From: Apostichopus japonicus
Taxonomy: Eukaryota; Echinodermata; Holothuroidea; Aspidochirotida; Stichopodidae
Length of the DNA stretch: 64,000 nucleotides
Reading direction: 5' to 3'
NCBI RefSeq assembly: GCF_037975245.1
Contig: NC_092561.1
Location: forward strand, 17,861,001-17,925,000
Below the pieces are notes generated by a model. That model ran no database searches. It had not been told where the DNA came from and saw only the letters and a list, made by a program, of their open reading frames with translations. Of this stretch, positions 10,499 through 61,117 are shown piece by piece. Position 1 is the first letter of the stretch; each line of letters starts with the position of its first letter. The position numbers were made by a program, and so were the translations under genes.

Positions 10499-13400
10499 TC
10501 AGGATACACAAGCGTCATCGAAAACGGCATCGTTCCGTCTGAATTCCAGAATTAGAGTGATACCAATGAGCAAAAAAACAGCAGAGAAAATAATCAATAT
10601 AAGCCTGTCCATCACCAATGCCACCGTTCGAGCCTGTATATTTTTCTGTGAAGAGATAAAGATAAAATAGGCAAAGCTTATCTTATCAATCGTTTATTTT
10701 GCTTGTTTTCTAACAATTAATCGATGGAAGGTTGTAGCAAATGTTACGTTACTATTATTAACAACAGAGGCAATATTTTAAAGCATGCAGTTGAAGGAAA
10801 TTATTAAAAGTTTAGGTAGATATTTGCCTTTTACTTCGCAACTTTCCCTTGCGGTGACATAATCCGTATGTTAATGGTTTAACCCTAGCGACGAGTAATT
10901 TCTTCGTATTCAAGGTAACCTTGCTAAAGTTATCACTTCAGTATACTCGAAATTAGCTTAACGATAACAATCAATTAATTTTCGAATTTGAATCAGCAAT
11001 TGTCAGGATCTGGTTTATCGACAATATTGTTTCTGATTAAGTTATCATAATAGCTAACAACAGCAGTCACTCCTAGCAATGCCTTTCTATTCCCTACTAA
11101 ATAGTGTGAGAAGTCCCGTCAATTAATTATTACTAAATCCAAGATATTGCAACCTTCACTTACAATTGGATATCCTTAGCGGACATTGGTATCGCCCCCA
11201 CCCCACAATGCTAGAAAGCAACTAAGCAACATTTTTCAGAAAACTGTTCAATTACTCAGTTAGAATGAGGTGAACAATTGAACATTTTGCAGAAAATAGT
11301 TGAATTGACGAGATATGATAAGTTGTCAATTAAACATTTTTCAGAAAATCGTTCACTTACCCAGTTGGAATGAGGTGAACAATTGAACATTTAGCAGTAA
11401 AATAGTTGAATTGACAAGATATGATAAGTTGTCAATTAAATATTTTGCAGAAAATTGTTCATTTACTCAGTTGGAATGAAGTGAACAATTGAACATATTT
11501 TCAGAAAAATGTTGAATTGACGAGACACGATAAGTTGTCAATTGAACATTTTGCAGAAAATTGTTCAATTGGTCAGTTAAAGCAACTGAGCAATCCAACC
11601 TTACTGATTTTTGTTAAAATATTATCTGGTTATCTAAACAATTTACTGAAAAATGTTGACTTATTAGGGCAAAGTTTTCTTATGTTAATGACACTTTTAC
11701 GCTTCCATACATTACTATTGACTTTTAATTTTTCAGTTCGACTCTCCTGAGGAAATTTGGTCTCCGTAGCAACACCTTGGGACCTGGTATCCTACCTTCT
11801 AAACATTGAGTAGCAGTATGTATATAATTTCAAGATACCAACAACTTTCAATTCATGTTTATTAAAGAATAGCATAAGAAGGTAATAATGTGGACAGCGT
11901 ACATTGTCGGGTCCACACTTGGTCATTTCTCATTGATCCATGTAATTAAATGATTCCTATTTTACATTAATAAACAAAATATAAAAGTAATCACAGAAGT
12001 TTAGTACACCTTTTCACGTCCTTGTGGCACTATATGGCAACACATATTAGCAAAATGATACCGCACATTCACTAATAAGAAGTTTAAATCATTGTTCATT
12101 TCTTATAATTGTGGGAGTGGCGGATGCATTTTAACCCGAATAACAGTTTGGTTTGCTTCTCCTTCGTCAACTACATACCTTATCCACGCTTTTTAATTCC
12201 TTCTGTGGTATATTATCCTGCGTCGGTTCAATCTGATTTCTTTTAACTTTCGTTACTTTCTTCACATCTGAATCACCAACATCCGACTCTTCATCGGAGT
12301 TTGTCACCGTGGATGGTTTAACTTCAATTTCATTTACAATCTCCTCTCTAAGTCTGTCTTTGTAAGTAGTGACGAAGAGCATCGCAGGCAAAATCTCTAA
12401 GAATGCTCTTCTAAGCCAAGGCCTCTTCATCGACGAGAATGGGCTATCGCCGTATGCGATGTTGATATTGAACAACGAGAATGGCACCGCCAAACAGGCC
12501 ATACAGAAATTTTCTGTCAAATATTCACCCAGAAGGGGGGTATCCTTGCTTGCAACTGGCAGTGTCTCAGAAACGAGCAGTTGGAAGACCGTTAAACCAA
12601 GGACCATGGATACTCCCAGCGATATACGTTCCCCGCTATCAGGTGGCGCTAAGAAGGTCACAAACGCCAGGGCGCACAAGAGAGTTGACGGTATGATAAG
12701 CGTTTGGATGTAATAAGATGGATCTCTTTTCAGAGTGATACAGAAAGATACCGCCGAGTAGTTACTTACAGGTCTGTTGTCTACATAATCAGGCAAATCA
12801 TAATATGTTGCATTGGTGGCGGTTACTTTAAGCAAATCCCATTGGTTGCTTTCCACGAATAAAGTAAACAGATTACTATCAGCGTATAGAGTTATGTGCT
12901 CCTCGATTTGATTCTCGGGCAGAAAATGGAATGGACACGCCTGAGAGTCGAAAGGGAAATATACAACACTGGCGAAAAGAAAGCAAAACGGTTAAATTGT
13001 GCACGGATCAGAGGCGACACCATGATGATAAAACACTTAAAGGAATTAAGGGCCAACCCTTGGCTTAGCTGACAATTGTGTTCGTATGATATCTGGTAGC
13101 ACTTCGTCATGTTTTCACTTGGATATTGTTATTTAATATTTTGTATTTGACAGTGACTTATTCATTGGATATACCAATAATATTACATAATGTTACATGT
13201 AACGCAGTGTTACTAGCTAAAGGCCAGTGGTTTGGATTTTTCTTGAGGACAGCAATAGGTGACGGTTACCTTCACGAGAGTATATATGAGCCAATTTGCT
13301 CTATTAGTTTGTTTTAGAAAATCGTTGCAGTACTTTTGCATAGTTCATGGCTGCCTTTTACATCGTGTTATACTCAGTATGACCTATTTCGGGGAGACAG

Positions 13401-21500: not shown

Positions 21501-24500
21501 CCCCTCTTACCCACATCGTATCCTCTTCCGTATCAACCCTGGTATAGGTAATCCAGATTTGTAAAATAACCATTGAGGTATGTACGAACATGTTCACATT
21601 TACAATTACGTTTATTAACTTGAATTTTGCCAATTTTATTTTAAAAGACAAAATGTTGAGGATTTTTTTGAATTTGATGTTTCAAATTAGTTCAACAATT
21701 AAAGTTAAAAGGAGTCCACGTATATTGCACAATACTCGTTGGTTACTGTAATAACGTTGTTGCTTGGCAATCTAACGCCGTTAACTATTTTAATAACAGC
21801 TTATACTGCATATGGAAATTTGCTTAGCCAGTTATTTGATAACTTTTGGTAATATTTCACACAAAAACAGAAAACAAGTAATCATGTTCATAATGTATGT
21901 AGAAATTGCGTCACGCGCATGCCAATAGCTTTTCCAAGTATACATAAATTAGAAGGTGCATTCACATGGTATCATGCTTTTCACTGTTTGTATCTACAAC
22001 GTTGATCAGTATATCTAATTTTACAATACTATTTTTCAAAATGTTAATATAATTTAAAATTGTAAATACTTCATCAAGTTTTAGACACTCACCATATCCC
22101 GAAACATTCAATGGTGTTCGTTTGTAGATACTTAACTTTCTCAGTGAGATTGAAAACAGAATCAGGAAACAAAGTGTTACAGTATAGTTTTGCAGTTTTA
22201 TAATGTAACAGTGTTATAGAGTAATAATGTTAAAGTATAATTAAATGTATATATTTATTTGTCTTAGCGTGCATGACCGTTATTTAAGAGGGGAACAATA
22301 CCTCAGTAAAAGTAACCAAGACAATAGTACTTATTTTCATTCAGCTGTCTACTAAAGTTGTTACTGTGTGTTCCATTTTCCTTATAAACAGCGATGGAAG
22401 GACTTGCGTCTTTCTTGGAATGCGTCTGAGTTTGGAGATGTGACAGTCGTGCCAGTGTACGTGGAAGAGATATGGACTCCGAGCATCTTCATCACTAACG
22501 CGTAAATGACATATTAGCTAACTTTAAATATGAGACCAATCAGGGTTGGAATGAGAGTGTGGGTAGGGTAAGATAGTTAAGTCAACCATGTGTTTATATA
22601 AAGTAATATTATGTAAAGAAAGTTAAGAAACATTTTGATAGGACAAATAATTAATGGAAGGAATTCTATGGAAACAGTGAACTAACTTGCGTTCTCATCC
22701 GGAACTTTTATCTGCATTAGAGGTCACTGGGAATTCCATATTGTTACCTGAATTACTTTTAGTTTAGATTAGTCTATTAGCAATACTTAAAGTCATCAAC
22801 AATTGTTGTTCAAATAAACGAAGGAACAAAAAAAGCTATATATTTAATACACGTTGTTGGCTGCTGTGTCGTTTACAATTGCATATAATTACAAGGACAG
22901 AGTGTGACAACATTTTGTCGACTTAATGTAAAACTAAATATTAGTTTGCCTCCTTTTAGCCCACTAGCCATAAAATGTATTATGGTTATATTTCCACTTC
23001 AATGCTGAATTTCTTTTTATTAATGGTTAAGCCTAAATATCAAGAATAAATTATTTGCTTCTACTCAACAGATTGGACAGTGATTCTTTGTCTATCGTCT
23101 CACCAGAGAGAGGAATGATATTGTTAGATTCGGATGGAGTGGCTACTTTGGGAACCCCAGCCGTCTTGTCTACACAGTGTCCTCTCTCGTAAGATATTTG
23201 AGCACGTCGATATTTATGAAAGTTTATTAAACAAAATGAATACAGTGAGAAATTGTTGGATAAATCCAACACCCCCACCCCCACGACATAAAGTGCAACG
23301 TATGGACACGTCATATTAATTTCATTATAACTATTTAGTTGATTACCTGAAATATACAGCAATATCAATCTTTTCAATCCCATCATTTCTCTCGATTTCT
23401 CTGACTTTGCCATACTTTTTTCTTTTTTAACTATTCCTTATTTTGTATCGATATTTCTTGTTTGATTTCAGAATTTACTACTTTCCTTACGATAAACAAG
23501 TATGTCGTTACCACTTTCTGCCCACTAACCAACCTAATGACCTTGTCAAGATACTAACACGATCGCAAGGACTACTCGGCACCTACAGCAGCCTTGACTG
23601 GACAATTACAAATCTTACCAATTATGATGGAGAACTAATCATCCCAGATTTTACTCCAAATATTCATAGAGGAAATTTGAGTATGGCTGTGTTCTGTTTG
23701 CACCTTGAGCGAGATCCGTCATACTATATCAGGGTACTATTAATACCGTCTACACTTCTTTGTATATTGTCTTTTCTAACATTCTTTGCTCCCCCAGATA
23801 GTGGTAAAAGGATATCGTTGAGCGTATCTATGGTTCTTGGTCTGACCGTTTTCCAACTTCTTGTAGCGGATATTTTGCCAACAACTCTCGAGGATTCTCC
23901 AATTCTTAGTTATTATCTGATAGTCAATTTTGTCCTTGCTTGCAGTACCGTACCAATATCATTATCGAATATTAACATCGCTTATGGTGATAAGAGACTC
24001 ACTGTTCTAAAGTTTACGTTCATGAGACGACTGTTGGTTGAATATTTACCACGGATTCTTGGTGTTACGTCGTACAGTGAAAGGATAAACTGTTTGAACA
24101 AGCCACATAAGAGGAGGAATCAACTTGAAAACAGCGACATGGAGACCAGGACACCAGAGAGTTTGGATGGTCACTTAGACACGACTGAAAAGGTTCGTTT
24201 AGGAAATAATTCTTTATTTGAATGTTACCTTGTCCAGTTTGCTCAAGACAAGTTATAATGTAACAGTTACGGTAACCTTTCATTCTGACTAAGATATGCA
24301 AGAGCAGAGATTACAGTAACTACTGTAAATCTAAAGTTTTGTACCACAGTAAATACTAGATCGTGCTGACAAATCTGATAAATCGGTAGCATGTGCTATT
24401 AAGTTTACAGTACGAACTGAGGATATTTTTAATTCCAACAAATCCTAAACAACTGGATGTTTTGGAATTACACATATCCTCAGTTCTTAAAACAACTGAG

Positions 24501-33450: not shown

Positions 33451-34343
33451 ATACATAATATGTGCATCAAATTACAGGGGCGGTATTTAATATTACGCAT
33501 TGTGAATGATGCGCGACATTATGATGAAAAAGTAGTTGGTCACTCCGATTACTGGTTAGTGTTGTGTTACAACACAGGATAAAAAAAATGTGTTAAAAAC
33601 TTTACTACTTTGAACATTGTTTCATAGAAAGTGAAATATACAATTAGCTGACCCATCTCTTTACGGAAAAGAATTTTGTTTCAAAATTTGATATGAAAGG
33701 ATACGTGAAGCCATGTTGGCCGAAAATGTGCTGAACGTCTGTAGCCATTAGTATTTCGAAACAAAAAGCAATAGAAGTGACTGTTTTGCAATATTTTTTT
33801 GTCAATTTCATAGAACAGCTGTCCCGTACGATATAACTGTTATGCAAAGTCCAAACCTTCAGAATTCTTTGGTATTCTGTCCAGTTTTCGACAATTCCTC
33901 AGCTTCTTAACACAATTTGTATTTATTTTCTCTACAGGGTTCATTACTTCCCCTACGATACACAAGCGTGTCCTTTCTATTTCATTCCCGAGAATCAACC
34001 CTCCGATAAAATCAGTCTGATCCCGTCATCTCCAAGAGACGATTCTGGAATAAATGATAGCAATGAATGGACTGTCGTTAACTTCAATAGTAACAACGGA
34101 GAATATTTAATCCACGGTCTAACTCCAAATAATCACACCTCCTTGTTAAGTTACGGTGTGTATTGTCTTTCCCTTCAAAGAGATCCAAGTTATTATATCT
34201 CAACTCTTGTGTTACCCTCATCGGTTTTACTTTTACTAGCTTTCGCGACGTTCTGCTTGCCTCCTGACTGTGGAGAGAGAATATCACTCGGAGTGTCAAT
34301 GGTTCTTCACTGTAAAAACTAAAAGGGTTCATTTACCCCAAAA

Positions 34344-35110
34344 TAGGGTAAATGTAAATCCCGCATGTGGACACAAAGTATGGGTATTTATAACCACATT
34401 TAGGTGTGAATTTACCCTTTATTGTGTCGCTATGCAGGATTTACATTTACCCACTATTTGGTTTCTTTTACACAATTTAGGTGTGAATTTACCCATTATT
34501 GTGTTGCTATGCAGGATTTACATTTACCCACTTTTTGGTTACTTTTACACAATTTATTTGTAAGTTTACCCTTTATTGTGTTGCTATGCAGGATTTACAT
34601 TTACCCACTATTTGGTTACTTTAACACAATTTAGGTGTGAATTTACCCATATTTGTGTTGCTATGCAGGATTTACATTTACCCACTATTTGGTTACTTTA
34701 ACACAATTTAGGTGTGAATATACCCATATTTGTGTTGCTATGCAGGATTTACATTTACCCACTATTTGGTTACTTTAACACAATTTAGGTGTGAATATAA
34801 CCATATTTGTGTTGCTTAGCAGGATTTACATTTACCCGCTATTTGGTTACTTTAACACAATTTAGGTGTGGATTTACCCATATTTGTGTTGCTATGCAGG
34901 ATTTACATTTACCCACTATTTGGTTCCTTTAACACAACTTAGGTGTGAATTTGCCCATATTTGTGTTGCTATGCAGGATTTACATTTACCCACTATTTGG
35001 TTACTTTAACACAATTTAGGTGTCAATTTACCATTATTTGAGTTGCTAAGCAAGACTCACATTTACCCACTATTTGGTTACTTTTAAACAATATAGGTGT
35101 AAATTTATGA
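34344..35110. repeat. left subterminal array of the transposon, about 77-bp unit, 9 copies
   Basis: The unit contains GCTATGCAGGATTTACATTTACCCACTATTTGG, then ACACAATTTAGGTGTGAATT. The block GGATTTACATTTACCC recurs about every 76-77 bp from 34438 to 34975, plus a decayed copy near 35050. The first partial copy (34344-34375, GGGTAAATGTAAATCCCGCATG) is inverted relative to the rest. Variants differ at scattered sites. Confidence 0.92.
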
Positions 35111-37280
35111 CTTAGTTGTGTTGATGTGTGGGATTATTCCATTAGATCTTTTAGTACTATTATGCTTAAGATGTACAACTACCTCTTTGATGCTGCTGCA
35201 CATAATTTACAATTATATTAAAGGTATTCTGTATTGGCCCAAAATTATAGCATGCTATAATCGCTAGATGTTTTCAAAGAATACTTTCCTGGAGGTCACT
35301 ACCCTCCAATGGTTCACAGACATTCTACATTGAGCACACAAGATGACTGAATGTCTCAGTGAGAAAAATTTCCTCAAGAGTGGTAATAAAAACAGTTCAG
35401 AATTTTAAGCAAAGGTGACCATATTTGGCCAACACAGCATACCTTCATTGGGCTACATAACACAATGCAATTTAATTGTGCAGATTCTTGAATTAATATA
35501 ATGGGTAAGAATGTTAAATTAGGAGAAAACTAGAAACTTCAAACATGAATACTACACTGCATAAACGTGATATGAATAATCAATGCAATTGCATGTTTAT
35601 ATCAATCTAGGAATATTCATGCATAATGTACAATATGGTGAAGCAACACTTAAAGTTGGTAACATATGTGTATACTAGTAAAACCTTGACTAAAAAATGT
35701 TACATTTACTAATGTATGATCACATTTTCTCAACAATTAGAAACTGCCACAACCCATTACAAGGCATGTCAGGTATTAAACCATGTAACAATTTTCATTT
35801 ACATCGATGAATACATTTGTAAAATTAAGGTGTGCCAATCTTTTAACATTAACATAAATCTCTATTGACCACAAATATTACTTTCAGGTTGTCTGTTATG
35901 ATTATGCTGTATCACTGTCACCTTAAAAATCTGGTATCACTCAAAAAGTGCATTACTTTGGCATAACATTGGTAAAAAAGACCATAACTCCCACTTTTAT
36001 AAAATGGCTCAGCAAAAATTGAGAAACTTGGAGAATATTAAGATAAACAATCATAACTTACTAATAAAAACAATTTGTATGTAAACAACTAACTTTGCAA
36101 ATCAATGCAGGTACATCAACATGCTTTTGTTTATGATCAAACCCATCAGTTCTCACTGACCATGAATGTTGCATCAACACAATAATGGTTTACATGATAA
36201 GACCTGTATGTTACTAAGTTGTAAATTAATAACTCTAAAACATACCTTAACTCTAATGTATGATTAATTATACAGTTCTTAGTGCTTTAACATTTCATGT
36301 TGATTTATCTTGATTACAACAGTACACTCAAAAAGTTGCATTAGAGTGGTGCATGTTTATGTGCACCACCCCCACCCCACCAACCAAATTTTGTTGTGAC
36401 AGAACAAGCCACAATATATGGAACTTTCTTGTCACTGATCTAATTGTTCCAGCAATTGTCTCCATGATTTTATTTATATGTGCATCAAGCATTACAAAGA
36501 TTATCGATAACAACTTCCTGGTCTTGGTATAAATTGACAAAAACAAAATCAAATCGAGCAAAGATACGGTGATGCTTAAGTTTAGGCCTATGATTGTGAA
36601 TGATCACCATTAACCATCTGTGTTGAGTGTAACCGAGGCTAACTGAGGAAGACTAGCATACAATTAGTCTACACTAAGCTTGCTTCAACTAGGCTGAACG
36701 TTAAACCTTAATCACTATACCCCTCTATGTTTATTGTAGACCCCACAATTTATCACAAAATATTACTGTACACAATTTGCTATTCTTAATGCTCATCAAT
36801 CTTGGTTTGAATGTATAAAAAATTTACTGGCTTAGATAATTTGCTTAATATCAACTAATTGCTGTTTGGCCTTCTTATTACACCCAGTTCTAATTGTATT
36901 AACAGCTTATTATTGACTTTACTATATGACACCTTTTATAAAGTTGCATTAGTGTTCCAACTAAATTTTCGCCCCCAACTTTGCTCTTCGTCATAACAAG
37001 GCATGTCACAGCACTTCAAACTTGTAGTTGCCCCTGATCTCACTGTTTCACCAATATTGTAATGTTTAGTATTATATATCATTTAAGTGTATTAAGAATT
37101 ACCCAAATTATCATTTTACACATTATTTGTCTTGTAAAATTGTGCTAACAAACTAAATCCCTGAAAACAACACTATGCAAATCCAGCAAACAATCTGAAA
37201 AACATAACTAACAATAATTCTGGGTCAACAAATAACAGAAAAACAATAGAACTTGAAGAAAAGTCACAAAATGAAATAAA
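35111..37280. other. non-coding interior of the transposon, downstream of the SAMD3-like gene
   Basis: 2.2 kb of AT-rich sequence with no recognised gene or tandem repeat. It includes the probable 3' untranslated region of the minus-strand SAMD3-like gene. Confidence 0.5.
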
Positions 37281-40200
37281 TCATGCTTGAAGTTTTGCAA
37301 TTAATGAAATGATCTTTTGAGGCAATTTCCCCTTGTCTTTGCATTGCAGCAGAACATTTTGCAGAAATGTCAGTGTTCCTTTTACTTTGCCGTTATACTG
37401 TATGTTGAAAACATAATATGTTGCCAGCAGGATTAGAACTGCCTCAGGGAAAGATGCTGCAGTACTGCATTTTTCGTTTTCTGCAATGATTGTTGTTTGA
37501 TGGGTCCAGCGGATCCCCAGTGTATGTTATGACCGGTGTGTTGATTTCAACATCCGAGCTAACCTATCAAACAATGAAATAAATAGGATGATTAATTCCT
37601 GATAACACATTTTCAAAGGTAATCCAGCTTCTTCAGAATCACATACACTAAACTTGCATTTGATAATATTACTTGGGAGCTGATTTGAATAAGCATCATT
37701 TCTAGCTATAAATGAATATTGCGAATGTTTCTATAACTCAGGGTATATATAAACCAGAATGTCAAATAACTTAGTGATTCCTTGCCATTATGAAGCAACA
37801 TTAGATGGCAGATTTTCCAACTTCCACCGTGCTGACCTGATATCACCAGAAGTGCCATTGGCCTTAGAGTATCGAATAATAGGTACCTATATAAGAAGAT
37901 TGAATTTGAAACCAACTATCATTTCTTCAGCGATCAACTTTATTAAGACTTGGCTCTAATTGAAGACAAGTGAACTGTGACCTCCATACAAAACATTCGG
38001 GATTTGCTACTTACCAAATGCTACCTAAATTCAATTCATGATATGTGGTGGTAATTAAAGGGTTCAGGTTTTCATGTTTGTTGATCTCAAATGACCTCTG
38101 ACCACAATCAAAAACAGGAAGAACCACCTACTCACCAAGGGTTACCTTGTGTTATCTTTTAATTCAAAGAAAAAATAGGGATCATCTGCTCACCAGGGCT
38201 ATCTAAATATTACTCTTGAAGTGCAAACCATCTTTCACTTCTTGAGGTATAGTGTTTACAAACCGAGGCCTCACACACACCCCGATCAGCATTGCATAGA
38301 TTTCTTTGGCCTTAGAAGGGTTATCGACATATTACTCTTTACATCTTTTGCAAGTTTACAAATAATACACCAACTAATGAAAGGGTTATTAAAATGGGAA
38401 GCTTACATCATCATCACTGTTTATAAACAGAAAGTTGCGATCTTCTTTCAGGAAGCCAGGTAGTATCCAGAGAGCTGCGGTCCATGTAGCATCTGTAGCA
38501 GAAATAAACACTGAAGTTATTGTCTTCATTCAGTGTAAATGAATGTAAAATGTAACACAACAGTAAAAAATTTCATGCTGATTTCCTGAAAATAACATAA
38601 TGATTTAGTAAGTTGATGTAGTGTATCAATGCAGTTTTATCTCTGCACTCTTAAAAATAACTACATTGAAGTGTTCCTTAATTAATGTTTTATTGCAGGA
38701 TTCAGTAAACCATCTAATTCATCCAATGACGACACTGTTGCTACTTTGCCTCATATGGTCACAACTTGTCTCCTTGCTCAGATTATCCTGTATATATGAA
38801 ACAGGATTGGCCACATTTTTCTTCATTATCTTGAAAGACCTTGGATTTTTTTTTAAGTTTTCAAACATCTGCCATCAGTTTAACTAATTTATATTTTAAG
38901 AAGCTGACAAAATGCTTGTCTCAACTGAAACTGTTAAGACATATCTCCTAGTCTACATAATAGTAAACGTTTTTATTATTTTTGGTAATTAACTCAGCAC
39001 TTTGAGATGTTAACTTACCCCTTTTGTCTTTTTCTGTCAATTGCTGAATAAAGTTGTTGTATTCAACAAGGAATCGAAGAGTGCCCTTTGAGTGATTTGT
39101 GTTGTAGGTGATGATCTTTGCTGCAATGTCATCAAGATTTTTGTAGAACATCTCCGACACTGCATCCCAACTGATGATGGCTGAAAAATCTTCTATGATC
39201 TATGAATTAAGGTAATAAAAAGGATGATAATGACATTGTATTAATAAACAACTTTCAAACAGGAACTTTCAGCCAAGTATTTGTGTTAGATCATTAAGTC
39301 AGTAAAAGAATCTTGTTTTGGCAGTTATTCATGATTTTCTTCAGTCAAACCTCTATTTTAGTAGAAATTCTAAACATTCAAATACTCTTACATATCATCC
39401 ATGGTATTTAGATTCACCTACTTTTTGAAAATCCCTGTCAAAGCTAACAATGTGTTTCTTCCATGGTAAATAAAACAGCTATGATTAGCTCACTTGGCAG
39501 GTTAATTTGTGGCAAAATACACTCATGACCCTTTTCCTTGAACTTTGTCTACCTCAAATGATTCTTGAACTAAAAAAGGTAGGAATCATCTACTAACCAA
39601 ATGCAATCAACATTCTAAGGGATTTTTAAGAAGCCAGTAACTGACAATTTTTCCACTTATTGCACTGTGTTTCATGAATATCAGCTATGATTCAAGGAAG
39701 CTTCCCTTCCTGAGAAATCCTGAGAGCAAGCTATGCAGCATGAACACAAGTTCATTCACCCTTACATACACAAGCCTTAACATTGGCTTATGATTTCTTC
39801 AAACCAACAATTTCCAGTGTAGAACATTATAATCATAAGTCTTAATAATTAGGAATCATTTGTTTGAAATTACCTGTTCTTCACAAAATAGAGTAGGAAA
39901 TTTGCCTCTGATTTCTGCTATTGGTGGTTTCTCCTCAAGTACAAGTCTCCTTCTCTCTCCAAATGTCAGTGCCATTAATGACTTAATTTTGTTCTTGTCT
40001 TGTTTTTTCTTTGTTGATTCCTTTTGTAGTTCCTTAATGTGCAGTTTGATAGTCTCCTCTGTTTCACCCTCAGGTAGAGTCCAATCAGCTCCCTCTTTTC
40101 TTTCTCCCTCGTCAGTTGTTGCATGTGTAGATGTCTTCCTCTTCTTCACAACTACATCCCTCGTCATGTGTCTCCTCTCATTTCTGAACTTATCTTTGAG

Positions 40201-43200
40201 TGCATTTTTCAATGCATCCTACAAAACCAAGATGCAAAAATGAATGGAAGCTGCAGTATGATGAGATAATCTGATATCAATGTTACATATTCTGTTAAAA
40301 TACCTTTCTTCAGTCTGGACTTGTAATTTAAAGAGCTATGAAATTGTGATGAACACTTGAACACAAAGTATATTGTAATTTTGTTACAAGGTCTTAAAAA
40401 CAGCTGAACAATTCAAATTAAACTTCAACACTATTGTTAGGTATAAAACTCGGCAACCTCACAATGTAATTTATGCACATGTTTCATCATGTCACCTCAC
40501 CCATTTTAAAGAGTAGACACCTTGATCTTACAAGCATGCACATCTGGACATTCATGTCAGATGCATGCACAATGTGTACTGGTTCATGCATCTTCTCGGG
40601 TAGGCCAGTAAATTATATGAATATGTATGTATACATATATGTCACAGGAGGGGGCTAATGTGCAAACATCTGCATGTATACAAGACCCCAGACTACAATA
40701 TCCCCCCCTCCCCCACCCACCCTGTGCTGCAGCAGTTCAACCCTTGCATCCACCCAGTTAAGTTCCCTCAAACTGAAAAGTACTTTTACAAACCAACAGC
40801 AAAATTAATCTATAGTGGATGTAAGATTTTACCCTTGAAATGGCAGGAGAAACAATCTAGTTTTGAATGCCCCATCATTTGACATGTCTTTATTAAAAAG
40901 ATCCAGCTGTACATAGTTCTTCACTAGCACCAGCTACTGGATATAAAAATGGCTTTTGACAATTAAGCAAATACAGTGAAAATAGTCTCCTGTCTACCTG
41001 AAAAGCACCAATTTGACTGATACCATTAGTAGTGGTAGTTTTGTACAAAGTAGTCGAAATTACACAATCTAGTCAGGTGCTTTTTATATGTACATATACG
41101 CCCACCTTCTAGATAATAAATGAAGAGCTTAATCATATACTTACATAAGGCTCACAGAATGGTAATTTGATTGCCAAGTTTGGAAAGGACTTTATGACTG
41201 CTTTAGCTGCTGTATTGTATTGATCTGTAGTAGGATACCTACAAAAAAGAATATCACTTTATAGTTGATTCACATACAGGGTTAGTGCCAGCTGTAAAAT
41301 TTAGGAGGGGGGGGGCAATTACCCACTTGACCAACTCTTTTGGGGGGGATTTAGTATATTGGGGGAGCCTTTTTAAAATGCGGAGTGAAAGGAAAAGATG
41401 GTACTGTCTGGGGCTCCAAAAGCTCCAGTTTTTAACCTTCATATCAGCAGGACAGGGCTTGGTTGGGTGAGACTCATACAGGCCCAATGATCTCCCATAA
41501 TAGAAATTTCTTATGTTACGGGATACTGCGGACTATCTCTATAGTGGTCTCTTGTATCATTCTTGAAGATATATTGTCTAAATTGTTTTGTTTTTACTAT
41601 GTAATTCTTAATTCCTTGTTTTAGTCTGATGTTGATCTGGGAGTGAAATAAACCTTACACACACAAACACCAAAAATTACATTTTTAAAATAATATCAAC
41701 AACTTATTTTGCAACTTAATAATAACAGTGAAAAGTTCACCCATTTACCCACTAACCATCAAGTCCTGCTTGTACTAAGTACCTTACCTAGCACCCCCAT
41801 TCCCCCCAGACAGGCTGAGTCAGCTAAAAGGCTATGATTTTATATTTGAGGTCGCTGCCTGAGCTTGTTTGTTTTGGTAATGTGGATATCCCCATCTGAA
41901 GTTAAAATATGAACAGAACTTTAACAAAGTTGTAACCACATCATTCCAAGGTTCCACAATATTAAAATCTGTAGGTTATTGACACATGACGTCTTTATAT
42001 GCAAAAAATCAAATGCGAAAATACAGGCTTCCAAAGGTGTTATTGTTCCAGGTTAAATATCACCACAATTTCAAAGATGGCATACTTACACATTGACATA
42101 TTTCAAAGCTAGTAATTCTGAGATGTTGAAAAGTCAAGATTCCAAAGACTTGTGCATTATGCATGCGTATGACATTTGAAGGCAAAAATTTACACTGGTT
42201 TAGCATTAGTGATTGAAAAGACAAAATATTAATATTCAAATAGGGAAAGGTACTTACACAGTAAACAAGCACATTTTGTCAAATGTAGCTTGGATTACAG
42301 CAGATTTAATTCTGTTGCTGACAGGTCCCCCTTTTAATAGTTCTACCAAGATGTCTCTCCTAACATCATCTTGATGCAGCTCAAACTTGCTTGGCCATGG
42401 CAAGAACTTTTCTTCTTCATGAAAACTATCAAGCATGCAAAAAGGGTAAACAAAACTTTATTAGCAAAATGTATAGAATTAGCACTTTCAATAAAGTGAC
42501 CCTAAACAAATTTTACATGAACAATACAGATTATACTTTGACACAGGTTGAACAGCTTGATTTTCACTACTTCAGCTGTAAGTTGTTGAACATGCATGTC
42601 AGTACTTAGCAAAATGTGACTTCATATTAAATGGCCTCTTCAAATAAGGGGCTTTGTACTGAACTTCTTTAGGGAATGTGTGGGACTTACTGTTAACCAA
42701 CCAAGTTCCACCAACCCCCCACCCCCCATACCCTAATATATTGTAGTGACCCCTGATTTGAATTAGTATACTGTAGTATAATATTTCTATTATGGCTCTT
42801 CCTACTCATGTGACAATGTTTTTGTTACTGAATTGTTGAATTCATGCACCATAACTCTTAGATTTGTCTTTTATATGCAATATTTATTTTCTAAAATGCC
42901 ATAAAATATAATTGTAAGGTCAGCACCAGAAATATGCAAGGTTTAGCTGATATTGCAAATTAGTTTGGGGCAACTGCTTATTCCCTTAAATAAGCTCTTT
43001 TTTGCTTCTGTCAAGGTAGGATAATAATTCAAACATGAAATATTACATGTCTTACCTGTCTGAAACATCACTGGTACAAGGTACATCTCTTTCATTTCCA
43101 GCCAATATAATGGTGTCATCTGAACTTGAAGAGCTTGTAAATGAACTGGCACTGAGGCATGCAACTGACAAAGGAGTGTCCAAAATATGTATTATAAATT

Positions 43201-44029
43201 ATTTTTCTAATTTGCAAAACCCCAGGATGTAAAGATTAAATATGTGTTGCTCATAAGTACAAGAAACAAAATAACTGGATTTGCATTGCAATTTGCTACT
43301 TACTATTAAATCTTCAACTGCTAACCAATTTGATATTGATTAGCACTTTCATTAGACAGTAATGCTTTTTGATTGATATTGCAAACTGTAAACTGTTACA
43401 ATGAAAATTTGAAGTAGTATTCAACTTTGGCATACCAATTTGTCCCTTGCAGAATACCTTCAGACTGTGATAATTTCTTATCTTAAAGCTTCCCTGAAAT
43501 TTCAAATATGAATACTATAGTGACTTCCTCCTGTCAAATATCCCAAAACTTTCCACTACTGTAGGGGGAAAGCCATGAGGAGAGGTTATGACAATGTACA
43601 TACATTCATACAAGAATGTTTTATGTGCATATATTATCCTTGGAACTACCCAAGTACCAATAAGTTCCAAATGGGGTTCACACATCACATTATGCCAATA
43701 AGGCTCCTTCATGAAATGGTAATAAACATGCTGCTGATAGGCAAATTTTTCTGGACAACAATCTTTTTGCAATCGTGTACAAGAAGCATTTATACTTACC
43801 TTCATCTCTTTCACCAATCACATTCAGTTTAACTGCTTTATCTTCCATCTGCTCTTCTTCTATATCACCGTCAATGTCCACCCAGTCGTCAAAGTGTTTA
43901 TCAAAGACCTGAAGCCGAAATTTCTTTATCCCAAATTGAGATTTGATTTCTGGTTCTACATCACTTGCACTACATAAGAAAACCCTTTTTCTGGATCCAT
44001 AAGTTACATGGTACCGTTTAAGTGCTTCA
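37281..44029 (-). CDS. SAMD3-like protein with N-terminal PB1-like domain, 5'-partial and with one frameshift
   Basis: Eight exons in transcription order: 44029-43800, 43164-43056, 42425-42258, 41238-41145, 40218-39874, 39199-39019, 38492-38407 and 37563-37281 (stop TGA). Phases agree throughout. Exon 1 encodes a PB1/ubiquitin-like module (KKFRLQVFDKHFDDWVDIDG...AVKLNVI). Exon 2 is Ser-rich. Exons 3-4 hold FLPWPSKFELHQDDV and YPTTDQYNTAAKAVIKSFP. Exon 5 holds LKDKFRNERRH, a basic linker and KFPTLFCEEQ. Exons 6-8 include ALWILPGFLKED and LILLATYYVFNIQY. This order is typical of multicopy SAMD3-like proteins of fish and invertebrates; no SAM domain is visible. The last exon is 283 nt and changes frame near 37490-37515. 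No ATG is found, so an upstream exon is missing. Confidence 0.75.
41285..41480. repeat. G-run-bearing dispersed repeat fragment
   Basis: The sequence TTAGGAGGGGGGGGGCAATTACCC, then TTTTGGGGGGGATTTAG, resembles low-complexity G-rich transposon ends seen elsewhere in the window (59150, 63400). It lies in the SAMD3-like gene's intron, just downstream of its fourth exon. The family is not identified. Confidence 0.4.
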
Positions 44030-44137
44030 CTGAAGACACAAATATATAGAAACTAAAAAGTTGTTTCTTCTAACCTTTGAAGTTCAAAGTAACAATGATA
44101 AGGAATGAGATGCTCTATTTTAAGTATTAATGTTTCT

Positions 44138-46669
44138 CTAAACAAAGTACTTAAGTGTTACCATTCTCTGATTTTGATTTGTGTAAATTGATAAGGGTAA
44201 ATGACAAGCAAAATCTTCATAAGCAAATATGACCCATTTTTGTTGAAAACACAATACATAGCTATGGAAATGTTGACTGTAACCAATAGTGCGCAAAACC
44301 ATCAAAACAAAATACACTTTACCACCTTTGATAAAGATTGCATCTATTTTGCCAAATTCATGCAACCTATTTTCTCTTGCCTCTAGAACCATGCAACAAC
44401 CTTTTGCATACAATGAACTGTGTAATTCAACAAAAGCTAATGTATGCACTTCTTCAATGCTTGGAAATTGACTTTTCAAAGCTCTCTGAATCCCATCACA
44501 AAACTGATGTAACTTTTGAATGTCCCCTCCTGAGTTGGATGTCATTTTGTCATCCAAAAAATTCTGACCAGCTCCATAATAGCACATAAGTAATTGATGA
44601 CGCCTTGCCAATGTCTTACACAAATTCCGCCTGTTTTTCTGCCTATTGGCAATTTCTTTGAAATATGCATGTTTAGCTTCAAACCTCATTGTCCAGCAGT
44701 GAACAAGAGGTCCATATTTCAATATTGAACGAGGGTAATGCAATAAGTAATGACTTTTGGGTTTAATTCTATCGTCAGGAAAGAGCTCTTTCAGAGCAAC
44801 CAGAAATCCATGCACCAAATATTCCAAGTATGCAACCATTTCACACGGTATAGAGGGAGCAAATGTAATTTCACAAATATCCATAAGTGACAAAAATAGT
44901 TCCCAGTATTCATTTCCCTCTGGAATTGAGCTTCCTATGATTAAAGGCAATAATCTCATCAGGCACCATGTTTGAGATGCTGTTTGTTTGATTTTGAAAC
45001 TTCCCAGGTTAGCAGTGGTATTGCAAGTTGGTTTGCTTTTCTGATCACTTTTTCCAAAGGGAAAAAGTTTCAAAGCACTGTTAAAAGATTCCAAAGTGAA
45101 AAAGCCATCCTGAATAAATGTTGTCACAACCTTCGTCATTAATTCTGGAACAAGTCCTTCGAGCAAATCATGAGCTGGATCAGGTGGTAGACAACTGATT
45201 ACATCAAAGTATTGCAAATCTGACAAAACAGATTTAGAAGCTACTCCATAAACATGCCTAAGACCTTGATTTTCCATAACTAACTGCACCTGATGTTTGT
45301 GACCAACACTTGTTCTTTCGATTAAACTGGATGAATCAAAATGATCTTGAATGTCATTACTACTTGCCATGCAAAATCTACATATTCTACCAGCATGAAA
45401 ATGTTGCTGAAAGCCTCCTAACTGATGTGCTGCCAAGTTATCCATGGAAACCAAACTAATGCAACCCTTGAATGTAAACTCCTCCTGGTTTAAAGTTGTT
45501 ATTGTCACCCCCTTACTTTCTAAGACTTTAACATCCTCAAGAAGCGGTTTGAGCACTTTCCCAAAGCCATACTGTTTTATTAATCTTGTACAGCAGAGGC
45601 AAACAAGCTGAATTGTTGACAATTTTGACCGAAACTTTGGGGATAAATTTCCAAGAACAAAATAAAATGCAGCAACTTTGTAGCTGTTAGCTTTATTTCT
45701 AAGTGGGTTCACCACACCAAAATCATCATAATAAAAATGAACTTGGAGTGCATGTGGCTCCAAAGAGAATAGGGGATGATTTTGAAATGCTTCACCATCA
45801 CAGTAATCCTCATATCGCTTGTCCCCATGTCTAGAAAGGGACTTCAGAACTTCTGCTAAAATATCATCATGACTTAAAAGACTTTTTAGAGTATCAAGCA
45901 ATGGTACATAAATGAATGTATCATCTTTCCCACAGGTGGAACCTAGCACATGTTCACCTGGCTCAACTAAACCAAAATGCTCCTTATAAAAAGCTGTCTG
46001 TTTATAGTCTGAGGCCAACTTTTCAAAGATGTTATTTTTCTTTTCAAACTTTTCATCGATAAAGTTAAAGATATCAGGATTTTTAGCCACTGTGAAACCA
46101 GAAGCTGAAAGTTTTTCTTTGATCTCTGTGCTATCATCCCTTGAACTGTTATAGATGAGTTCAGATAGCTCTAATATTATGCTATTTGTAACAGTAAGTG
46201 GTAGTTTATGCTTCTCTTTCATGCCTAAGATGAAAAGAGCAAAGTCTCTTTCCGTGGATCTTTCACCGATTTCTCTGATGTGTGATCCATCACCCAGAGC
46301 AGCAGCATCGATAGCACTTATTCCAGTTGATTCTGCAAGACTATTTTTATGCGAATTATGAGTCACATCATCAACTTCTAAACCAATGTTTTCCGTCACT
46401 AGACTTGTGCCTACTTCAGTATCCTCATGCCCACCAGAGTTACTGTCATGCCTTATGTTAACATCGAACACTCTTTTATGAAATTTCCGCAGATGGGAAT
46501 AAAACGTGCTGAACACCCGATATTTTCTTTCACAACCATCTATTCCACATCTTATGGAGAAGTTGGGTTCAATACTATGTGAGAATCTTATGTGATGTAA
46601 CAACTTTTTGAAAGTAATGGTCCTGAAAGTGTTACATATTGAACAACTTTGCATCTGCAAGGATGCCAT
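44138..46669 (-). CDS. transposon-encoded protein: C2H2 fingers plus CACTA/Transposase_21-like domain
   Basis: An uninterrupted ORF of 872 codons if read from the ATG at 46756. I prefer the ATG at 46669 (MASLQMQSCSIC), just before the first finger, giving 843 aa. In the longer numbering, C2H2 fingers lie at about 38-60 and 70-93. YYDDFGVVNPL (342-352) with YFVLGNLSPKFRSKL, SCLPPDPAHDLLEG (521-534) and KSHYLLHYP...WTMRFEAKH (667-696) follow. These resemble conserved blocks around the D, D and E of CACTA transposases (DGxNP...NLPP, DxxHxxxxG, RFE). Candidate catalytic residues are D344 or D345, D526 or D530, and E693. CRFC (459-463) may bind zinc. The C-terminus (MVTLKYFV) looks natural. It is intact, so possibly functional. 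Its role as transposase is inference. Confidence 0.8.
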   Translation of the reverse strand: MASLQMQSCSICNTFRTITFKKLLHHIRFSHSIEPNFSIRCGIDGCERKYRVFSTFYSHLRKFHKRVFDVNIRHDSNSGGHEDTEVGTSLVTENIGLEVDDVTHNSHKNSLAESTGISAIDAAALGDGSHIREIGERSTERDFALFILGMKEKHKLPLTVTNSIILELSELIYNSSRDDSTEIKEKLSASGFTVAKNPDIFNFIDEKFEKKNNIFEKLASDYKQTAFYKEHFGLVEPGEHVLGSTCGKDDTFIYVPLLDTLKSLLSHDDILAEVLKSLSRHGDKRYEDYCDGEAFQNHPLFSLEPHALQVHFYYDDFGVVNPLRNKANSYKVAAFYFVLGNLSPKFRSKLSTIQLVCLCCTRLIKQYGFGKVLKPLLEDVKVLESKGVTITTLNQEEFTFKGCISLVSMDNLAAHQLGGFQQHFHAGRICRFCMASSNDIQDHFDSSSLIERTSVGHKHQVQLVMENQGLRHVYGVASKSVLSDLQYFDVISCLPPDPAHDLLEGLVPELMTKVVTTFIQDGFFTLESFNSALKLFPFGKSDQKSKPTCNTTANLGSFKIKQTASQTWCLMRLLPLIIGSSIPEGNEYWELFLSLMDICEITFAPSIPCEMVAYLEYLVHGFLVALKELFPDDRIKPKSHYLLHYPRSILKYGPLVHCWTMRFEAKHAYFKEIANRQKNRRNLCKTLARRHQLLMCYYGAGQNFLDDKMTSNSGGDIQKLHQFCDGIQRALKSQFPSIEEVHTLAFVELHSSLYAKGCCMVLEARENRLHEFGKIDAIFIKGGKVYFVLMVLRTIGYSQHFHSYVLCFQQKWVIFAYEDFACHLPLSIYTNQNQRMVTLKYFV

Positions 46670-46756
46670 AAGGCCTAATCTAACAAAACCTTGGCTAGGC
46701 TTTATTAGGATGGCTTGGCATAAGTACTGGACAAACCTCACAGCATTAATGCACAC

Positions 46757-47208
46757 TCAGTTTTAATAGTTCAGTCTTGGCCTGCGCTAGCTAGGCTTAT
46801 AAACTTTGATACAATGGTAGGCCACAGTGTAGGCCCTGCATTGTACTAGTGGCTGTTACTTGTAAGACATAGCCTAGGCTTAGTTATAAAGTCTTCTAAT
46901 CTTATATAGGCGAATAAGTAGCAGAACAGTTAGGCTAGTAAAGCCTAGGCATAACAGTTATTTAATCTGTACTTTTATAAACCAAACAACTCTTTCAAGG
47001 GCTTAACGTCAACTTACACTTGTGACATGTTGCTTTAGATTCATATAAAAATACAAGCGGCCGTTGAAGGTGAAGTCCAGTCGTGTCAAGTCTCGTCAAA
47101 TGTAACGGCGAAGCGCTTCTGCGGGAACAAACTATGAAATACTAGGATTGGTCGCCAAGCAGTGCAGTGATGACAGTATACTGTATACTGTACTGTACGT
47201 ACGTAGGT
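46757..47208. promoter_or_regulatory. 5' region of the transposon's minus-strand genes
   Basis: No coding frame. Several GCCTAGGC/TAGGCCTA words occur, along with a more GC-rich patch near 47060-47130. By position it holds the promoter of the C2H2/transposase-like gene and perhaps the missing first exon of the SAMD3-like gene. Confidence 0.35.
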
Positions 47209-47212
47209 TTAA

Positions 47213-48670
47213 AGAGGTTATGAAATGAAAAATTTTCATGTCTTAGAATGGTTTATCTACATTACTACAACACCATCCATGCACAACTTTCCGTAAATAC
47301 GGCTTCAAACGCCAGAAATTCGCTGTCAAAGTATTCCCCAGAGACCTCTCGAGCTGCCACTCGTAAAAAAAAGCAAAGCTGCCCACCGCAGTTCATCTGA
47401 CGTCATCAAAGGAACCATTTCAGCCAAAGCCGACTCCCCGCTGTTTACCGATACGGCGTTACACAGTTCACTACATGTAACCACAACACTCTTCTCATCA
47501 ATTGAAAATGTCTCTCCCGAATCTTCCGATTCAGAGGAAATCTCTCAGGACATTCGTAAGCTTTGACGAAAATTATTTTCTTGAGGAAGAAGAGGAGGAA
47601 ATAGTTTTCGAGGGTGATGAAGATAATATCGGTGTTTTTCCCTATCAATTGAGCCCCTTGCAGAAGAATTGTAAAACGATCCGGTGGCCGAGACGCGTCG
47701 CTGCCGATCAAAGTCCCCGAGCAGAACGGTTGGACGACCCTGAACCGAAACTGGTCGGTTGAGCATAAACAAAACCACTGTTATTAAGACCATCATATGA
47801 TTTAAATTATCTCGAATGTCGATGATCCTGCTACTTAACCTCGTAGCGAAGCTTCTAGAATTTTGTGTCTTACAGTGCAAGGAAAATGTGACATTCTGTA
47901 CATTGCAACCCTATAGTACTAGTAGTGGTAACATGGGTCTAGACCTAACTAATAGACGTTGTATAACAGGCTAGCCAGTGTAATTGTATCATCCAACTGT
48001 TACGTAAAATCACAACACAACGCCAGTTTTACCAGAAAAGAAAACTTGCAGATCTAGTATTGATTGTTCTTAAACCAACTGGCTTTAAAATTTGTGCGAA
48101 ATATTAGGTAACCATAAAAAAAATCGTCATTTGCTGTATCAAGGAGGCCTAGGCTATGGTCATAACAAGTAATTTGGCAACAGTATAGGCCTACAGGCAC
48201 TCGTAACGTTGTGTATGTGTAGTGTTTTGAGCGAGTCGTGTTCAAATTCTTCGATTTTGTCATCTTTTGGAAAAGCTTGCAGTAGAAATCCGTCTTAACT
48301 TGTGGTGGAGCAACCTGATACCACATCGGCTCGGCATTTTTAACATTTACGAGATAAATTTACGTAAAAACAAACTCCAAACACCAAATCTCAATTACTA
48401 CGGAGCACTGCAACAGTGTAATGGTGTGTGTTCTCAGACGTTTAAGAATGTAAACATAGCGTCTCGGAAGTGAGCTGAGTTCCTCGACTGACGTCACGCC
48501 GCGTTACCGTAAATACAACAATTTTTAGAAAGTTTTTTATTACCCTCGAATTTTTGATCGTTTATTCCTCGAGAATGCAAGCTTCGTTTGACACAAATTG
48601 GGTATCATTGGAAAGCTACGAGTGTACAGAATACGATGATAAAGAATTTTTTTTTCATTTCATAACCTCT
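47213..48670 (+). mobile_element. nested 1458-bp TTAA-specific DNA transposon (piggyBac- or Kolobok-like)
   Basis: Perfect 20-bp terminal inverted repeats AGAGGTTATGAAATGAAAAA are flanked on both sides by TTAA (47209-47212 and 48671-48674), the target site used by piggyBac and Kolobok elements. At this length it lacks a transposase and must be non-autonomous. It sits inside the larger element, so it inserted later. Confidence 0.9.
47502..47762 (+). CDS. short acidic ORF inside the TTAA element, uncertain
   Basis: An 86-codon frame whose product has an acidic run (YFLEEEEEEIVFEGDEDNIG) followed by VFPYQLSPLQ. The second Met (MSLPNLP) is as good a start as the first. A NIGVxPYxF-like acidic leader is reminiscent of N-termini of repetitive proteins in marine invertebrates, so it may be a leftover first exon captured by or belonging to the element. 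No domain is recognised. Confidence 0.3.
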   Translation: MKMSLPNLPIQRKSLRTFVSFDENYFLEEEEEEIVFEGDEDNIGVFPYQLSPLQKNCKTIRWPRRVAADQSPRAERLDDPEPKLVG

Positions 48671-48674
48671 TTAA

Positions 48675-50040
48675 GGCATTGTGTTAGCGCCAAGCGCCAA
48701 GCGCGAACGAACCACCCTTTGTGAAAGAAAACTTGTCATTGGCTTAAAGTTTGAATCTTTCATTTGATATTATGTGGGGTTCTTTCTAATTTTTCAGATA
48801 TGCACCCATTTTCTGGAATACCAACTTTGAATCTTTTACATTTTTACCAATATTTATTACCACATCCACATTCTTGAAAGGCTGTATTCAGTGAATTAAT
48901 GTAAAGTAGTGTTTTAGGAAATTTGTTTTTAACCAATGAGAAGTAAGAACACTTCTGAGACGTATAGTCTGTCATTATTCTCTCGGCGCGGCCTGGCTGC
49001 AAACGTAACTTTTATTTCTAGTACGAATGAGTACATCATTGTAGAAAATTCTATAGAAGTCACAATGAAAAAAATGTTTCAGCTATGGTCGACGTTTAAG
49101 GGCCAGGCATTGTTATCATCCGTTGTGGGGATAAATGTATGCTGGCCGTGCGAAAAAGCACAAAACACTTAAACGTACACAATCATGACAAAAATATTGT
49201 TCCAGCTAGCTCAAGCTGTACTTCTAAGAATATTTTGTGAACAAGTGTCTCGAGAAATACTCACGTTTAGGCTCTATCAGTTTGAATTGTGAGTCAAACC
49301 GTCTTCATGGGCCAATCCAGAAGGGGAGGGATTCAGTGTTTCGAGAAAATGATCGCAGTAGCTTATATACTTTCCGTTGTTTTGTTATGTACATAAGCGT
49401 ACGGGACTACCTTCGTTGAGGGGGGGGGGGGGGGGTTGGTCTGACGCAACACAAGCTAGCATGCTCGAAAAAGAGCGGCTGGTCTGAAGAAAAGGGTACC
49501 TTCTGATCGATGGGTTGCAAACCTTCACCCCGTCTCATACGCGCCCATGGTTAGACCTATGTAGATCTTATAGATAATTGTCTGCACCCCTTAATCAGGT
49601 GTTGGTATTTATAGGTTGGGCGCCGCTCCTTATCTGTTCATTACCTCAGGATCATTTGCTATTTTGACTGTATTAGTTAGTCTTGCCTTATTAAACTTTC
49701 ACGAAACTTCATATAGGCCTATCCTACGACTCCATTCATATCCTCTCACCCCCACATAAGAAACAGTTATTATTTTACTAATAACCATGCAGACATTTCC
49801 ACGGGGAAATTCGGGGATACTCCATATATCTGTACAGTTTGCCGTATATTTATAACACGATATAGGCTATTAATAAATAAATGTCAAGCTAAACAGCTGG
49901 CCTATTGTCGCCCCAATTCCTTTTGACAGTAATTTGCATTGGTTGTTGGGACTTTAGAAATTGGGCCTATAGTCGCCGGGGCAGCTCTGTGTTCCAAAAT
50001 GTGCATGTAGGGTACTATAGGGTGCATACAAATAATGACG
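48675..50040. other. non-coding part of the transposon, right side
   Basis: No gene recognised. It contains a poly-G run (about 49420-49435). Otherwise it is unclassified sequence between the nested TTAA element and the right subterminal repeats. Confidence 0.5.
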
Positions 50041-50688
50041 GGCTAAGACCCGAAAATACTGGTAGTGATGTATATTAACCCATGAACGAGTAAATTTATA
50101 CTTCAGTACATAAATACTGGGTGATTATTCCCCCAGGGTGGCATTTTAAACTAATCACAAGTGTATAGAACAACTACAACCACATGAAGTGTATAAATAG
50201 CTCCTATCTTGTGTGATTCTACCCTCTTACGATACTTCAAAATAAGTGTTGTTGGTGTTATACCCTTTTTGACTTAAAACAACATACTAAGAAGGGTTAT
50301 TTTACACCTTGTTACTAAGGTATACATTATTCGTGCAAAGTACATGTTATGTGGGTAAAATTACCCTATTGGTTAAAAAGGGTACTTTTTTGAAAAGTGA
50401 GTGTAAAATAAGCACTGTAAATGTGTAAATGTACATAAATCATTGTGTCTTATTACACGCACAGTATGTAAATTTACCCACAAAGATCAGAAATACACAA
50501 ACCGGCTTTACCTCGGGGTATATGTACACGTTAATCGGGTAATGGCCAAGGCAATGGTTATGTTTACACTTTGTGATGGTATAACTACATTGTGGATGTT
50601 TATTATACACTTTTTCAGTGTTTAATAACAATCCATGTGTTAAAATACCTGACAACAGTGTAGAACTACCCGTTTATTTTTTAGAGTG
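50041..50688. repeat. right subterminal region of the transposon
   Basis: Dense short words GGGTAAA/TTTACCC, GTGTAAA and AAGGGTA occur in both orientations, for example GTGGGTAAAATTACCC near 50350, GTAAATTTACCC near 50467 and CACTGTAAATGTGTAAATG near 50412. The last begins like the element terminus. This mirrors the left array but is not a regular tandem repeat. Confidence 0.75.
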
Positions 50689-50690
50689 TT

Positions 50691-59790: not shown

Positions 59791-60235
59791 GGCGGAGTGT
59801 ATAGCCTAGTGGTTAACGCCGGCGTCTCCCAGTCATGAGATCCCCGGTTCGATTCCCCGCCGACAGCAAGGTGTGTCGTCTGGCAAGGGTGTTGTTCAAT
59901 AACAACTTCCCGACATGGACGTTAAATGGATGTGTGCCGAGAGATTGGCTTCGGTCAGCTTGCGAGTCTATAAGCCGCCATGGCTTCTTTCGCGAGTTCC
60001 TGCTTGCGGGAAGATCACACATACATACATACATACATACATACATACATACATACATACATACATACATACATACATACATACATACATACATACACCC
60101 ATACATACATACATACATACATACACACATACATACATACATACATACATACATACATACACGCATACACACATACATACACGCATACATACATACATAC
60201 ACACATACATACACACATACATACACACATACATA
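59791..60235 (+). mobile_element. tRNA-derived SINE with long CATA tail
   Basis: The head folds like a tRNA: GGCGGAGTGTATAGCC opening, A-box TAGCCTAGTGG, B-box GGTTCGATTCC and CCGCC closing. The body is shared with the SINE at 30238. It ends in about 220 bp of CATA repeats (60016-60235). A 5-bp target duplication CAATA flanks it (59786-59790, 60236-60240). It is inserted in hAT-like MITE copy 2. Confidence 0.9.
60016..60235. repeat. CATA tetranucleotide microsatellite
   Basis: Nearly pure (CATA)n with a few CACA and CGCA variants, forming the tail of the SINE. It generates open frames in several reading frames on both strands that are not genes. Confidence 0.97.
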
Positions 60236-61117
60236 CAATATCATATAAGCAAGCATAGGTCATTACATCGCATGGCATCGTGTACCGTACGGTCCTTGAA
60301 AGTTGCGCAGTCATCCGCAGGATGCTAATGTAAACAACGAAATGTCTTATGTAGATGGAGAAAAAGCATACAGGTCCAATTATGTCAAAACTCTCTTTTA
60401 CAGTAGTAATGGCGAATTAGTCTGCCAAGCTTAGAACGTTATTTTAATTACCAAGGAGATAATTTTTAAACTATTCATTTATTCTCAGCATATTGCCCGA
60501 ATTTTCAGGGGAACAAGTTTGGTTGGGGGGGGGGGGGGGGGGGCTGCAGCCCCGCCTCCTACGCCTATGTGTGTAGTGTTCGGTTTCGAAATATCTGATA
60601 TCGAAAATATCTGCTATTTTTCATTTCCTTCAACGAAGTTTTATAATTGCCGTTATAAGAGGTTGTAATATTTGTACATTAATAAATTAACTGTGTCTGA
60701 ATTTTCGAAAACTTCCTGACCAACATTCTTCATCATACTTCCCTCTACTCGTAGCAATTTTGACCGGTCTGTTAGGGGTTGAAGGAGGTTTCTCTATATA
60801 GGTTGTCCATAGATTGAATTTTGTGCAACATTATGTATATGTTTTGAAGTGATTTTCTTCACGAGAAATGTGAATTTTCAAATTCTGAACAAATAATGGG
60901 CTTTAAACTTTGAAAAGTGGGGCTTTCGGATATTGTGGGCCGTGACGTAGAATCACCTACAAAAGCAATGATCAACAGGACATGCAATGAAGTCGAACAT
61001 GATGTGTGACTGGTTACAATCTTCAAAAAGGTTATGGATGAAAAAAAAAATATTGGGAAATACTTGGTTCTCAGACAAAAGTGTACATCTGGTTGGTCAT
61101 TTTCAAGTCCGAGAAGT

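Follow-up and report, generated by a model that had tools for sequence, protein, structure and literature searches.

What kind of element has split a receptor exon in the sea cucumber Apostichopus japonicus, and do the two genes that it carries belong to it? The insertion lies in a stretch of 64,000 nucleotides (contig NC_092561.1, positions 17,861,001 to 17,925,000 of the forward strand; hereafter, the window), to which all coordinates below refer. A sequence-only reading of the window had described a two-gene, CACTA/Mirage-like transposon. We consider it likely that the insert is a cut-and-paste transposon of the CACTA/EnSpm type, organized like maize En/Spm as one transcription unit in which the transposase open reading frame (ORF) lies in the first intron of a second, SAMD3-like gene.

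Borders of the element and the interrupted receptor exon

The left terminus of the element, CACTGTAAAAACTAAAAGGGT, starts at 34308, and the right terminus, which reads CACTCTAAAAAATAAACGGGT when inverted, ends at 50688, the 5′ end of the element, as both genes are on the minus strand. The two termini agree at 18 of 21 positions, a count that the sequence-only reading had also obtained; its right border was the same as ours, while its left border, 34309, has to be moved outward by one base. When the left end was compared with all reverse-complement 21-mers of the window, the best partner was the 21-mer ending at 50688 (18 matches), and no other exceeded 15, ruling out a chance terminal inverted repeat (TIR). 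The terminal cores are CACTG and CACTC, and the plant CACTA form is not present.

Joining the flanks without the element gave ...GERISLGVSMVLGLTVFQLLVADILP... as a single frame and restored the receptor reading SLGVSMVLGLTVFQLLVADILP, in agreement with the flanking TT duplication and the VL|GLTV reading of the TM2 segment proposed earlier. The stretch SMVLGLTVFQLL is also found in three uninterrupted paralogous receptor ORFs (4008-4934, 12167-12991, and 23431-24258), all of which matched Neur_chan_memb above the Pfam cutoff; the interrupted ORF scored 23 bits, below the cutoff of 28.1. On the sequenced haplotype, the receptor exon is broken by the insertion. Together with the ORF split by the element (33837-34322), the three paralogues form a Cys-loop receptor gene cluster with members in both orientations.

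The element has subterminal repeats, as had been noted before; we found a 77-bp tandem array on the left and an enrichment of TACCC/GGGTA at both ends. This motif, which was picked after inspection of the sequence, was counted 18 times within 820 bp at the left (34308-35127), 9 times in the right 640 bp, and 19 times in the intervening 14,921 bp, and none of 500 shuffles matched the count at either end. For the longer word TTACCC, the right-end count was reached in 4 of 500 shuffles.

The transposase and its classification

The intact transposase ORF contains the catalytic and zinc motifs D315, D410, C430xxC433, H640xxxH644, and E664. The accessible part of PMC12730594 defines the CMC(T) group by a DDD/E triad in which C(2)C and H(3-4)H separate the second D from the last E, and the window transposase has this arrangement. 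The termini, CACT..AGTG, have the 5′-CA..TG-3′ form, and the TT target site duplication (TSD), known from one insertion, falls within the 2 to 5 bp of the group. These features, together with the RAG1/Transib-like predicted fold described below, support the earlier CMC placement. With respect to the finer label, the CAC..GTG or CACT(A) terminal core and a motif repeated in both subterminal regions (TACCC/GGGTA, 18 plus 9 copies) are features of CACTA/EnSpm; of the two sides of the earlier CACTA/Mirage-like assignment, EnSpm probably fits better than Mirage, judging from the CACT/AGTG ends.

Against Transposase_21, the window transposase scored 19.1 bits, below the Pfam cutoff of 28.6. The domain is precomputed in its relatives P0002 and P0003, and 8 of 14 transposase members matched it (best, 1.4e-5), while matches to DUF4218 were weak (3 of 14; best, 0.034). 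The gene previously called C2H2/Transposase_21-like exists and has a C2H2-like N-terminal part, with a sub-cutoff match for the second half of that name. Of the 843 positions of its product, 5 are different in P0001; against the A. japonicus protein P0005, 252 positions were compared, and 1 was different.

The best structural matches to the predicted transposase fold were the antibody-gene recombinase RAG1, BbRAGL, and HzTransib, with 9 to 15% identity among the matches listed, and these top matches would suit a Transib/RAG-type element rather than a CACTA element. RAG and Transib produce 5-bp duplications; the CACT..AGTG ends, the 2-bp TSD, and the sequence matches to Transposase_21 and, weakly, DUF4218 make such an assignment highly improbable. 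A common RAG1-like fold is expected, because EnSpm, Mirage, Chapaev, Transib, and RAG1 share these motifs, according to the accessible part of PMC12730594. The motifs, the fold, and the insertion itself give good support to cut-and-paste movement by a DDE transposase with a RAG1 fold.

The SAMD3-like gene and its nested layout

The second gene consists of nine exons. The first of them, which we recognized because it matches A. japonicus relatives, is upstream of the transposase ORF. By sequence match, this ORF (46669-44138) appears to sit between exon 1 (47028-47018) and exon 2 (from 44029), that is, within intron 1, an arrangement that corresponds to the En/Spm tnpA/tnpD layout and that the sequence-only reading had overlooked. 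The product differs from A. japonicus P0018 at 5 positions in the first 431 residues. The near-identity of both gene products to A. japonicus proteins suggests, independently of the record, that the window comes from this holothuroid or a very close relative. Exon 9 is frameshifted; the window copy is probably unable to make the full second protein and would need other copies to supply it. The stretch encoded by exon 4 (42258-42425) is absent from the A. japonicus model P0019, an absence that may reflect alternative splicing or a deleted copy. The gene itself was recognized correctly before, but its name comes from source-given names of near-identical or related proteins, and Pfam found no SAM domain in P0018, P0019, P0003, or P0005 (E up to 0.5).

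To follow the gene pair, profiles of the transposase and SAMD3-like parts were run against 21 retrieved proteins, and the E-values refer to this set of 21. The SAMD3-like profile drew on P0018, P0019, P0020, and parts of P0003 and P0021, and the transposase profile took in the transposase part of P0006. Five proteins contained both parts in one gene model: P0003 (Holothuria leucospilota), P0005 (A. japonicus), P0017 (Merluccius polli; independent E-value of the SAMD3-like part, 5.7e-16), and, on weak scores, P0021 (Astyanax mexicanus; transposase tail, 7e-5) and P0006 (H. leucospilota; SAMD3-like part, 1.2e-4). Because both genes lie inside the borders, host genes merely flanking an insertion were ruled out. 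Their position within the TIRs and the recurrence of the pair support, at the level of sequence, the earlier view of a two-gene element, and the protein records by themselves suggest that the element is multicopy.

The transposon could instead be moved by the transposase alone, with the SAMD3-like gene as a captured host passenger that has another role or none. The DDE transposase has its full set of motifs, the window copy of the second gene carries a frameshift, P0020 (Lytechinus) has the SAMD3-like part without the transposase, and 13 of the 21 proteins have the transposase without the SAMD3-like part. However, these 13 are mostly separate ORFs or short contigs whose neighborhood was not seen, and therefore they do not show that the second gene is absent; moreover, the pair is seen repeatedly, both in sea cucumbers and in fishes, and the nested exon 1 layout would couple the expression of both genes. 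We regard a passenger as unlikely.

We also considered two genes with separate promoters, in which the SAMD3-like protein would normally start not in exon 1 but either at the ATG immediately preceding a donor within the transposase ORF or as a fusion to the transposase. The models of P0003 and P0005 share one joining point, WTM|SE, whose donor (ATGAG|GTTTGA) is also present in the window and fits the phase of exon 2. However, the annotation history of these two models is possibly common, and P0018 and P0019, which represent clusters of 23 and 12 records, both start with MSQV, which the window encodes together with a donor only at 47028, making separate promoters improbable.

Several observations weigh against a single En/Spm-like unit with two working proteins. 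Beyond the 13 transposase-only proteins, three (P0018, P0019, and P0020) have only the SAMD3-like part, such that 16 of 21 do not combine the two, and P0003 and P0005 join them at the internal donor rather than at exon 1. A single insertion was examined, and hence one TSD; the subterminal motif was chosen post hoc, and the right-end count of TTTACCC was reached in 11 of 500 shuffles. No BAH domain was among the 22 Pfam families listed for the 14 transposase members, and in the SAMD3-like protein, no DNA-binding domain was identified, no Pfam family reached its cutoff, and the mean pLDDT (predicted local distance difference test) was 69.

Table 1. Coordinates of the element and its features in the window
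Feature	Position	Strand	Description or basis
Whole element	34308..50688	-	16,381 bp; TIRs, TT duplication, restored host frame
Target duplication TT, left copy	34306..34307	.	Flank comparison
Target duplication TT, right copy	50689..50690	.	Flank comparison
TIR, left (element 3′ end)	34308..34328	+	18/21 match to right end
TIR, right (element 5′ end)	50668..50688	-	18/21 match to left end
Left subterminal array, 77-bp unit	34398..35107	+	Tandem repeat, 9.2 copies, 92% matches
Right subterminal region	50220..50671	.	Nine TACCC/GGGTA words, both orientations; word count
Transposase ORF	44138..46669	-	843 aa and a stop codon; C2H2-like part at the N terminus, DDE/C2C/HxxxH motifs, BAH-like part at the C terminus; within SAMD3-like intron 1
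SAMD3-like exon 1, coding part	47018..47028	-	MSQ plus two bases of next codon, then GTAAGT donor; match to start of P0018, P0019
SAMD3-like exon 2	43800..44029	-	PB1-like fold; relatives' proteins and fold
SAMD3-like exon 3	43056..43164	-	
SAMD3-like exon 4	42258..42425	-	
SAMD3-like exon 5	41145..41238	-	
SAMD3-like exon 6	39874..40218	-	
SAMD3-like exon 7	39019..39199	-	
SAMD3-like exon 8	38407..38492	-	
SAMD3-like exon 9	37281..37563	-	Frameshifted in window copy relative to P0018
Smaller nested element with inverted-repeat arms, upstream of exon 1	47209..48674	.	1,466 bp, perfect 24-bp arms, TTAA at both ends

The smaller nested element is, we presume from its TTAA target and its ends, Kolobok- or piggyBac-like and non-autonomous. 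Elsewhere in the window, two adjoining ORFs (214-1653) resemble, by eye, the zinc-knuckle/protease part and the reverse transcriptase part of a retroelement, and a long simple repeat (59813-60416) gives IHTY and VCMY runs in several frames.

Proposed mechanism and comparison with known systems

For the En/Spm-like transcription unit, we propose that transcription would start near the right end and run leftward; splicing of exon 1 to exon 2 across the transposase ORF would yield the SAMD3-like protein, and the transposase would come from RNA that is unspliced or spliced in another way. PB1 domains oligomerize. The SAMD3-like protein would bind the TACCC-type subterminal repeats, and oligomerization through its PB1-like domain would draw the two ends of the element together in the manner of maize TnpA. 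The transposase would then cut at the CACT/AGTG ends and insert with a 2-bp staggered cut, and its BAH-like tail may read chromatin. We infer this predicted role as a TnpA-like helper from the position of the SAMD3-like gene, its co-occurrence with the transposase, the subterminal repeats, and the PB1-like domain.

Databases list the SAMD3-like gene as an ordinary animal gene. A more tentative extension, which we hold to be possible but doubtful, is that an animal CACTA lineage moves by means of two proteins of its own, a transposase that combines a RAG1 fold with a chromatin-reading BAH tail and a PB1-containing SAMD3-like protein that assembles on the ends, and that animal SAMD3-like genes, perhaps including vertebrate SAMD3, are transposon genes or their domesticated descendants. 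If so, an annotated animal gene family would be a transposon accessory gene, explaining its presence in many records, and annotations should change. The nested arrangement of two proteins in maize En/Spm would then have a counterpart in an animal, where the second protein is apparently a different one, and the required function of the helper would be open to testing in a new system. With its RAG1-like predicted fold, the animal CACTA transposase would become a further point of comparison in tracing how RAG arose, and the BAH tail, if real, would suggest chromatin-guided insertion.

Among plant elements, maize En/Spm, Tam1, and soybean Tgmt* share with this element CACT ends, subterminal repeats, large size (17 kb for Tam1 and 20.5 kb for Tgmt*), and a second gene with several exons whose first intron contains the transposase ORF, as described in the available part of PMC2613891. 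Unlike the En/Spm type, the second protein here is SAMD3-like with a PB1-like fold, the transposase has a predicted BAH-like tail, and the host is an animal; the same part of PMC2613891 indicates that En TNPA, Tam1 TNP1, and the Tgmt* proteins differ from one another too. The TSD is 2 bp here, in contrast to the 3 bp of Tgmt* (PMC2613891, same part) and the 3 bp stated for CACTA in the accessible text of PMC4158355. From RAG1/ProtoRAG and Transib, the element differs in its ends and duplication, and its partner does not appear RAG2-like, going by the PB1-like fold. Zebrafish EnSpm-N is likewise an EnSpm element in a deuterostome animal, but the one described is a 346-bp non-autonomous element, and the available part of PMC3485254 does not mention a gene pair. 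In the literature searched, we did not find a SAMD3-like partner, a BAH-like tail, or CACT ends at a size of 16.4 kb. SmTRC1 of Schistosoma mansoni and other animal TRC elements resemble our element in their animal hosts, Transposase_21, and 2-bp duplications (in 7 of 14 SmTRC1 copies), whereas the ends of SmTRC1 begin with CCC and its length is about 4.5 kb (PMC1636069, accessible part). SmTRC1 RNA is alternatively spliced, one clone having two tandem ORFs (PMC1636069, same part), and because an animal CACTA relative has these features, the broad layout that we propose is not unprecedented.
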